Notes under the pieces: generated by a model | The model's database searches: none | What the model was told of the DNA's origin: nothing | Seen by the model: the letters and a program-made list of their open reading frames with translations, nothing else | Source: Synergistaceae bacterium OttesenSCG-928-D05 | GTDB lineage: Bacteria; Synergistota; Synergistia; Synergistales; Synergistaceae | Direction: 5' to 3' | Length of the DNA stretch: 54,402 nucleotides | NCBI GenBank assembly: GCA_030266985.1 | Contig: JAJDJB010000007.1 | Span: 1-54,402, forward strand | Program-made: the position numbers and the translations under genes | In this document: piece after piece, positions 19,926 through 22,136 of the stretch | How the letters are laid out: each line of letters starts with the position of its first letter | Numbering within the stretch: the stretch's first letter is position 1

Positions 19926-20400
19926 ATTCAAACATCTGTTTGAATTTGTACTTTTTCAAAAAACGCGTAGAAAAAATATCGCAGCCAAATTCAAACATTT
20001 GTGTGAATTTAAAAACGATAGCGCAGGAAATTCAAACATCTGTTTGAATTCGTGCTTTTTCAAAAAACGCGTAGAAAAAATATCGCAGCCAAATTCAAAC
20101 ATTCGTGTGAATTTAAAAAACGACAGCGCAGGAAATTCAAACACCTGTTTGAATTCGTGCTTTTTCAAAAAACGCGTAGAAAAAATATCGCAACCGAATT
20201 CAAACATTCGTGTGAATTTAAAAAACGACAGCGCAGGAAATTCAAACATCTGTTTGAATTTGTACTTTTTCAAAAAACGCATAGAAAAAATATCGCAGCC
20301 AAATTCAAACATTCGTGTGAATTTAAAAAACGACAACGCAGGAAATTTCGAACATCTGTTTGAAATTGCGTTTTTCAAAAAATCTGTGAAACAAAAATCC
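19926..20400. repeat. Tandem array of 105-bp units with paired palindromes
   Basis: Four full units and one partial unit start at 19926, 20030, 20135, 20240 and 20345. Three are exactly 105 bp; the first is 104 (one A missing). Each unit holds palindrome 1, ATTCAAACATCTGTTTGAAT, then an A/T-rich spacer with AAAAAACGCGTAGAAAAAAT, then palindrome 2, AAATTCAAACATTCGTGTG plus AATTT. Both share the half-site TTCAAACA, giving about nine near-identical sites. It lies between aqpZ and the C39-like gene in a 642-base gap with no other gene. Because 105 is divisible by three, several frames stay open, but none has a convincing start. Confidence 0.9.
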
Positions 20401-20434
20401 GTAAGGAGAAGCTATCGCTCTAAAATTGCCTCGC

Positions 20435-21067
20435 TTATCTCATATATACAAAACCGCCGCCGAGAACGGTGCTGTTATACCAGATTGTGAGGTCGATGCG
20501 CTTTGTTTTTCCTTCGTCCATGATCTCGATGTATGCCTGACCGCCTTCACGTTCAAGCGACAGCACCGTGACCCAGTGCCATTCGTCGAGGTTTTTTTCT
20601 TCTCCGCTGTCGAGATTCAGGTACGCGACGGGAATGTCGCGTTCGAGCGCTTCTTCCAGAAAGTTGACAACGGTGGTGAAGCATGGGCGTTCGGACGCGG
20701 GGTTGTGCATGTCGATGATTGCGCAGCGGCGCACGCGGAGTCCGTTGTCCTGCGCGTAGGCCAGCAGTCCTTTGTAGAAAAGATCGGTCGATGGCAGACC
20801 GCGCTGGCGGGATGGCGTGACGTAGAGCCACAGTTCTTCCATCAGCGAGAGGAAATGCGCTTTATCGACAGGGCCGGAAGCCCCGGTTTCGGAAGCGAGC
20901 GAGTATGAGACGAGGTTTGACGCAACGACCGGGCCGCAGCCGGCGTGGCGCTGAAATTCGTCTCTGTACCATTCCTGGTTGCCGCCCAAATGGGTCTCAC
21001 CGGTTACCATGTCCACGATGTTAAAGAATTCCGGGTGCTTCAAAGCTACTTTTTTTATTTCACTCAC
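20435..21067 (-). CDS. Papain-like (C39-type) cysteine-protease-fold protein
   Basis: A 210-residue protein without signal peptide or membrane segment. The motif QRHAGCGPVVASNLVSY resembles the catalytic Cys block (Cys-Gly-Pro) of C39-like peptidases, and DEWHWVTVLSL supplies a His about 120 residues later, followed by an acidic patch (IEIMDEGKTK) that could give the third residue. Such proteins may be peptidases or inactive fold relatives. Start GTG 21067 with an AGGGAT stretch close upstream. The 3' end runs into the repeat array. Function is an inference from fold motifs. Confidence 0.65.
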   Translation of the reverse strand: MSEIKKVALKHPEFFNIVDMVTGETHLGGNQEWYRDEFQRHAGCGPVVASNLVSYSLASETGASGPVDKAHFLSLMEELWLYVTPSRQRGLPSTDLFYKGLLAYAQDNGLRVRRCAIIDMHNPASERPCFTTVVNFLEEALERDIPVAYLNLDSGEEKNLDEWHWVTVLSLEREGGQAYIEIMDEGKTKRIDLTIWYNSTVLGGGFVYMR

Positions 21068-21158: not shown

Positions 21159-21887
21159 TTACTGCTTCTCCGTGCCTCCGCTTCTGACTTCTACCTCGAA
21201 ATCGACGTGCGGCACGGGGCGCTGCTCTTCTTCGCCCTTGAGGCGGCGGACTTCCCGGCGCAAGGCGTGGATTTCTTCTTCCATGCGCAGGATGTGGGGC
21301 CATATTTGCTCCGGGCTGACGCAGACGAGGTCGTCTTCGGTGCGTTTCCCGTCGATTTTGATAATGCGCGCGCGCATGCCTGTGACGGTGGAGTTCGCGG
21401 GTACGCTTTTCAAAACCGCGCTATTCGCGCCGATGCGCGAATTATCGCCGATGGTAATGGGGCCGAGTATTTTTGCGCCGCTTCCGACGAACACATTGTT
21501 GCCGAGCGTCGGGTGGCGTTTTTTTGTTTTTTCGTTGCCCGTGCCGCCCAGTGTCACGCCCTGGTAGAGCGTCACGTTTTCGCCGATTTCCGCGGTTTCT
21601 CCGATGACGATACCAGCGCCGTGGTCGATGAAGAATCCCGGTCCAATCTCCGCGCCCGGATGAATTTCAACGCCGGTCCACCAGCGCACGAAGAGCGACA
21701 AAAAACGCGGCAGCACAGGGATGCCGAATTTTTTATGCAGAACGTGTATTCCGCGATGGCACGTGATTGCGAGGAAACCCGGCGTACAGAGCAGGACCTC
21801 AAGCGTCCCGCGGAACCCGTCTGGAATCGCGGGGTCATTGCGTTTTGCTGCCTCGTAATCGCTTTTGATATATTCCCATGCCGTCAT
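21159..21887 (-). CDS. cysE: Serine O-acetyltransferase
   Basis: A 242-residue enzyme that makes O-acetylserine from serine and acetyl-CoA, the first step of cysteine synthesis. The N-terminal helices are followed by the left-handed beta-helix with hexapeptide repeats (IHPGAEIGPGFFIDHGAGIVIGE, where His is catalytic, and GVTLGG). The C-terminal extension, about 60 residues and highly charged (EEEIHALRREVRRLKGEEE), may be coiled coil and is longer than usual. ATG 21887 has GGAG 8 bases upstream. It is preceded by a leader peptide with three Cys codons and a terminator, so attenuation by cysteine supply is expected. Confidence 0.94.
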   Translation of the reverse strand: MTAWEYIKSDYEAAKRNDPAIPDGFRGTLEVLLCTPGFLAITCHRGIHVLHKKFGIPVLPRFLSLFVRWWTGVEIHPGAEIGPGFFIDHGAGIVIGETAEIGENVTLYQGVTLGGTGNEKTKKRHPTLGNNVFVGSGAKILGPITIGDNSRIGANSAVLKSVPANSTVTGMRARIIKIDGKRTEDDLVCVSPEQIWPHILRMEEEIHALRREVRRLKGEEEQRPVPHVDFEVEVRSGGTEKQ

Positions 21888-21910
21888 GCTGATCACTCCA
21901 GTTTGTCAAA

Positions 21911-21942
21911 ATAAAAAAACCTGCCATTACGCGGCAGGTTTT
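21911..21942 (-). terminator. cysE attenuator terminator
   Basis: AAAACCTGCC and GGCAGGTTTT form a 10-bp stem with a 7-base loop, and on the minus strand seven T follow. It ends about 25 bases before the cysE start, inside the leader, so it can only act as an attenuator. Confidence 0.8.
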
Positions 21943-22005
21943 AATTACAAAAGTAAATTTGGTTTGCCGCTTAGCCTGTTCCGCCGCGGCACGCGCCGAT
22001 GCGGG

Positions 22006-22071
22006 TCACTCGATGAGAGCACCCGGACAACAGCACGCGATTGTGATAATGGTGAAAGTCGTATTTGTCAT
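22006..22071 (-). CDS. Cysteine leader peptide of cysE
   Basis: A 21-residue open frame: MTNTTFTIITIA, then three consecutive cysteine codons TGC TGT TGT (22027-22035), then PGALIE and TGA. After the Cys codons a stem forms around the stop (GGGTGCTC with GAGTGACCC, one bulge), then more GC-rich hairpins, then the attenuator terminator. It is too short for a standalone protein and fits a ribosome-stalling sensor: low cysteinyl-tRNA stalls the ribosome and prevents termination before cysE. The promoter puts the transcript start at or within a few bases of its ATG, so the mRNA is probably leaderless, which explains the lack of a ribosome site. Confidence 0.72.
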   Translation of the reverse strand: MTNTTFTIITIACCCPGALIE

Positions 22072-22078
22072 GAGGGTA

Positions 22079-22107
22079 ATTCTAACCTGCTTTTCCGGAA
22101 AAGACAA
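22079..22107 (-). promoter_or_regulatory. cysE promoter with 14-bp palindromic operator
   Basis: On the minus strand TTGTCT (22107-22102) and TAGAAT (22084-22079) are exactly 17 bp apart. The spacer holds the perfect palindrome CTTTTCCGGAAAAG (22090-22103), well placed for a repressor. The expected start of transcription falls at the leader peptide ATG. Confidence 0.65.
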
Positions 22108-22108
22108 G

Positions 22109-22136
22109 TAAAAAAGCGGCTCTGTGCGAGCCGCCG
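22109..22136 (-). terminator. Intrinsic terminator
   Basis: GCGGCTC (22116-22122) pairs with GAGCCGC (22128-22134). On the minus strand six T follow. It ends the TAXI gene, just upstream of the cysE promoter. Confidence 0.8.

Follow-up and report, generated by a model that had tools for sequence, protein, structure and literature searches.

The leader upstream of cysE on the minus strand of the analysed DNA is, in our firm estimate, a ribosome-mediated transcription attenuator of this gene that answers to cysteinyl-tRNA. Judged from the sequences, this leader switch very probably turns on cysE in Synergistota when cysteine is short. Computation showed that the Cys codons, the terminator, the geometry of the promoter, and the pairing arms are conserved, the arms with compensating change. 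The window, meaning the whole stretch of 54,402 nucleotides that was analysed, belongs to a genome of the phylum Synergistota (G000) which is 67% complete. The promoter, the frame with its Cys run, the hairpin at the stop codon, the GC-rich hairpins between leader frame and terminator, and the terminator in front of cysE, as listed by the original prediction, are all present in the sequence (Table 1). The prediction extends to a whole bacterial order: a cysteine switch for cysE that exists in 56 natural variants and has a clear alternative fold.

The cysE leader in the window and in its relatives

The gene was assigned with profile models, of which NCBIfam EpsC scored above its cut-off and TIGR01172 just below. 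The discriminator between the -10 element and the leader ATG comprises 7 nt and holds no Shine-Dalgarno (SD) sequence, and 28 nt separate the terminator from the ATG of cysE.

Table 1. Coordinates of the cysE leader and its surroundings in the window (all features on the minus strand).
Feature	Position	Details	Basis
Promoter	22079..22107	-35 TTGTCT 22107-22102, 17-bp spacer, -10 TAGAAT 22084-22079	consensus scan
Leader frame	22006..22071	MTNTTFTIITIACCCPGALIE; 21 codons followed by the stop; ATG 22071; predicted leaderless	sequence
Stop codon of leader frame	22008-22006	TGA, inside hairpin	sequence
Three Cys codons	22035-22027	TGC TGT TGT, leader codons 13-15	sequence
Segment A	22017..22025	directly 3' of Cys codons; partner B	fold; lineage permutation
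Segment B	21995..22011	22011-22002 pairs with A and contains the stop codon; 22004-21995 pairs with C	folds; B:C pair counts and permutation
Segment C	21981..21991	partner B (antitermination) or D	folds
Segment D	21965..21970	GCGGCA; partner E (antiterminator) or C	Cys-stalled fold; lineage permutation
Segment E	21936-21931	TGCCGC; partner of D in stalled state	Cys-stalled fold
Intrinsic terminator E:F	21916..21942	11-bp stem, 7 T; T run 21919-21913	terminator scan
cysE, serine O-acetyltransferase	21159..21887	ATG 21887	EpsC/CysE models
SD-like GGAG 5' of cysE	21899-21896		sequence
Terminator of upstream TAXI-type (TAXI-binding-protein) gene	22115..22135		terminator scan

Statistics on the single sequence were weak. 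The leader folded better than its shuffles (z = -2.67, 2/200 shuffles). Promoter-like matches are expected 0.6 times by chance, and a single match means little. Three consecutive TGY triplets carry no weight on their own (the genome pattern was uninformative). Therefore, reliance was placed on the comparison among relatives, and we regard conservation of these sequences as the decisive evidence against chance.

Using a cutoff of E below 1e-55, this type of cysE was found in 59 of the 188 Synergistota genomes sampled. Directly 5' of this biosynthetic gene, 56 of the 59 carry a short frame in which codons for Cys, the pathway product, form a run, and an intrinsic terminator, found in 56/56 leaders, which separates the leader from the gene. 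The runs extend from CC to CCCCC, with CIC in genus g23, and nearly all relatives have 2-5 Cys. Both codons are used (TGT 127, TGC 29), as expected if selection acts on the amino acid and not on the codon. The peptide residues beyond the run vary freely or track the RNA hairpin. No leader was found in 3 of the 59 genomes, namely G001 from the window's family and G042 and G044 from another order; here a promoter-like stretch lies directly 5' of cysE. A second, more distant type of serine acetyltransferase, present in other genomes, showed no such leader in the loci read.

The comparison of leaders in relatives that had been proposed with the original prediction revealed no loss of Cys codons or terminator arms, the single exception being G001, where the leader is missing altogether. 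Attenuation of cysE by a leader peptide, its central claim, gained support from Cys codons, terminators, and compensating arms conserved over 24 genera. A covariance model of the leader (R1), run on all 188 genomes, matched cysE leaders only, among them two loci from outside its training set, while none of the family models of Rfam 15 (T-box, known riboswitches) matched the leader. An extra copy was observed at L187 (G047:C4), 5' of a second cysE; about 70 codons into this gene other sequence interrupts it, apparently an insertion. When 79 related cysE loci of other phyla were scanned, a CCC frame appeared only at L129 (Acidobacteriia UBA6623, about 1295-1360); this short frame 5' of cysE is possibly an independent cysteine attenuator.

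Alternative pairings and the predicted switch

Attenuators of the his type consist of six segments, which pair either as A:B, C:D, and E:F or as B:C and D:E. The predicted architecture of the cysE leader is of this his-operon-like kind, with the first set assigned to termination and the second to read-through. Transcription would begin on the leader ATG or immediately beside it. A ribosome would, to judge from this position, load at the 5' end of the mRNA without a Shine-Dalgarno sequence. At ample Cys-tRNA it would pass the three Cys codons and reach the stop codon within B; B:C would then be blocked, D would not be free, and E:F would end transcription. At scarce Cys-tRNA the ribosome would stall on the Cys codons and cover A; with A covered, B:C and then D:E would form, no terminator would arise, and cysE would be transcribed. 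Translation, stalling, read-through, and the cysteine signal are what we infer from the sequence features.

The pairings were analysed separately for leaders with an SD sequence (SD-led) and for leaderless ones. Full-length alignment of 22 SD-led leaders together was dropped owing to its poor consensus fold, and the SD-led core was afterwards aligned alone (A1). The leaderless core aligned poorly, hence permutation served as its sole test. In A1, pairing was seen in 91.7% of cells for the A:B hairpin and in 96.4% for B:C; changes on both sides affected three pairs of the former and 15 cells of the latter. Shifting the partner by 1-3 columns destroyed the B:C pairing. The bases CCG are common to A:B and B:C.

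In the lineage permutation, each segment was combined with its own partner versus partners from other genera (24 genera). Own partners were better for A:B (z -6.8) and for B:C (z -2.9); the latter was clear in the leaderless group and weak within the SD-led group alone, although the pair counts were strong. For the antiterminator D:E, -16.1 kcal/mol was obtained with own partners versus -13.5 kcal/mol with those of other genera (0/2000 permutations). The lineage permutation was used here because comparing D:E strength with dinucleotide shuffles locus by locus gave no useful information in these GC-rich leaders (8/56 at p below 0.05). The arms are wholly different between lineages, e.g., CCCGTT/AACGGG, GGCGGACC/GGTCCGCC, AGCAGG/CCTGCT, and GCGGCA/TGCCGC, and these differences have the appearance of compensating change. 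By covariation and permutation, the two sets of pairings are mutually exclusive: B:C overlaps A:B, and D:E takes E from the terminator.

For the folding test, the RNA was cut just before F and three states were folded, namely free RNA, a ribosome stalled at the first Cys codon, and a ribosome that has reached the stop codon. The mean probability of E being already paired was 0.54 free, 0.62 Cys-stalled, and 0.48 at the stop over 24 genera (Wilcoxon, stalled versus free p = 0.004, stalled versus stop p = 0.0002). The stalled fold of the window contained B:C (CCGCatCGGC/GCCGcgGCGG) and D:E. CGCGGC with GCCGCG, originally suggested with some doubt as the antiterminator, stands as one possibility, whereas the Cys-stalled prediction is GCGGCA (21970-21965) with TGCCGC (21936-21931). 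Sequestration of E in the window was 0.46 stalled, 0.59 free, and 0.51 at the stop, the stalled state not being highest because E can pair with C, too. Since E is sequestered in the free and stop states as well, the window alone is no proof of the order of events, and the argument from these models is based on the trend across genera and not on the window fold. Minimum-energy folds of the full leader always contained the terminator, thus the switch must be kinetic.

Moreover, the 5' portion of the leader, with its SD if it has one, pairs with the segment that follows D, and own partners again did better than those from other genera (SD-led z -3.4, p 0.001; leaderless z -2.9, p 0.003). The window shows a weak pairing of this kind (-4.7 kcal/mol). 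Such a pairing may close the leader start behind the first ribosome or promote termination if translation fails.

Transcript start and rival readings

The window's clade was represented by 27 non-redundant loci, two genomes of family f3 among them. The end of the -10 element lies 6 or 7 nt from the leader start in 26 of these loci and 9 nt in one, and this spacing is kept over 15 genera. The promoters have spacers of 16-18 bp and -35 elements mostly of the TTGC type. An SD-like stretch was seen in one locus, 12 nt from the ATG, and is absent from the other 26. The predicted leaderless start, proposed earlier for the window, is supported throughout the clade by the near-fixed distance between -10 and ATG in 27/27 loci and by the SD absence. 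In other families, the -10 element, where found, lies 18-56 nt upstream of the start, leaving a 5' UTR, and an SD is usually present. The Cys run starts after 11-16 codons in leaderless leaders and mostly after 7-10 in SD-led ones. On the CysE tree the leaderless label required two changes, one being the whole-leader loss in G001, compared to 12.6 for shuffled labels; as the root is uncertain, we infer the direction of change.

Two members of family f3 (G062 and G076) carry a cysE with leaderless leader that groups near the Synergistaceae clade, other f3 genomes being SD-led; a joint acquisition of cysE and attenuator by horizontal transfer is possible. Predicted trp leader peptides with WWW were observed 5' of trpE at L206 (G022, MLFLRLQNWWWRAP) and L207 (G005, MARQGFLGWWWRTCGLPPGA). 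Each has a 5' UTR with an SD, in genomes with predicted leaderless cysE leaders, so leaderlessness belongs to the cysE leader and not to all attenuators there. A census of the window yielded no candidate leaderless start with a fitting promoter among its long frames. Positions 19956-20490 of the window form a repetitive stretch with repetitive open frames on both strands, in all likelihood a tandem repeat and not a gene.

As the device is predicted in both SD-led and leaderless form, it offers a natural comparison for the effect of leaderless initiation on the coupling of transcription and translation. Tentatively, and with somewhat less than even probability, one attenuator switched its mode of initiation: it would be SD-led in most families, with a single change to leaderless kept clade-wide, perhaps as loading at the 5' end couples ribosome and polymerase tighter. 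In SD-led members, pairing with the segment downstream of D would later seal the leader's own ribosome site, leaving the fate of each transcript to the first ribosome.

The same attenuator might act on an mRNA that is not strictly leaderless: either its start lies a few nt 5' of the ATG, which leaves a very short 5' UTR for initiation, or a second upstream promoter gives a longer mRNA. This we consider unlikely, though worth keeping in mind: the transcript starts are predictions, a distance of 6-7 nt between -10 and ATG permits a start 1-2 nt off the ATG, and G022 and G005 also carry the SD-led trp leaders. However, the constancy of the spacing across the 15 genera and the SD-free starts of 26/27 leaders argue for initiation at the ATG, and a longer mRNA is disfavoured by the upstream TAXI-type gene's own terminator, which by its position insulates the putative cysE promoter from that gene.

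The nature of the signal was also weighed. That the nascent Cys run responds to a signal other than Cys-tRNA, such as a metal or redox stress, and thereby controls this terminator is very improbable. Redox status has also been raised for mycobacterial Cys frames (Shell 2015, PMC4633059), but here the regulated gene is always cysE, the residues outside the run are free to vary or follow the hairpin, and the CIC run of g23 is consistent with codon counting. Of still lower probability is a riboswitch or T-box, in which a ligand- or tRNA-binding RNA is overlapped by an incidental frame. The pairing of the 5' part with the segment after D closes a multi-helix domain in many relatives, and one relative has a T-box 5' of leuA; nevertheless, the leader matches no Rfam family, and the conservation of the frame and its Cys codons goes along with synonymous variation.

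Other amino acid leaders and known systems

T-box-like motifs (GGTGGTACCGCG or GGTGGCACCGCG) with terminators were observed 5' of leuA-like (L196-L200) and trpE (L204-L205) genes, of which only L200 passed the Rfam T-box threshold. At L195 (G062), a strong terminator follows a short SD-led frame (MKGSVQYIRTVSSSLCLLLGCRFPPGTPAAW) 5' of leuA, a possible leucine attenuator. This distribution suggests that amino acid genes are divided between T-boxes (leuA) and leader peptides (cysE, trp) in these bacteria.

The cysE leader resembles his-type attenuators in its run of product codons, its six exchangeable segments, and its intrinsic terminator 5' of a biosynthetic gene. It differs by its Cys codons in place of His codons, by the gene controlled (cysE, not the his operon), and by a leader predicted to be leaderless. 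With T-boxes it shares the predicted sensing of tRNA charging and the controlled terminator; T-boxes, however, have no translated frame and bind uncharged tRNA directly, and there is no T-box match at the cysE leader. No report of a Synergistota cysE attenuator was found in Rfam or in the openly readable article texts searched.

For uORFC-8-2 5' of cysS in Rhodobacterales, attenuation by Cys-tRNA has been predicted (PMC8632094). Both leaders combine a short frame with tandem Cys codons and an intrinsic terminator, but uORFC-8-2 has two Cys codons and two prominent stems and is confined to Alphaproteobacteria (PMC8632094); location sets the two apart, the downstream gene here being cysE and not cysS. 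In mycobacteria, leaderless Cys-rich short frames precede cysteine genes (Shell 2015, PMC4633059). The polycysteine leaderless uORFs of M. smegmatis are described as translation attenuation (PMC4633059; Canestrari 2020, cited in PMC13236596). Short frames, predicted here to be leaderless, Cys clusters, and downstream cysteine genes are common to both, while phylum and gene differ. In contrast to translational control without a terminator, the Synergistota cysE leaders have a conserved intrinsic terminator, which points to transcription attenuation. Leaderless attenuators were described for trpL of Sinorhizobium meliloti (PMC7298713) and for ilvL of ilvBNC in Corynebacterium glutamicum (PMC11857589). 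As predicted here, their transcripts start on the leader start codon or one nt away, and attenuation is terminator-based, but they contain Trp or branched-chain codons and belong to other phyla. Leaderless attenuators and Cys attenuators are each known, and the Synergistota cysE case, apparently undescribed, is unusually well conserved.
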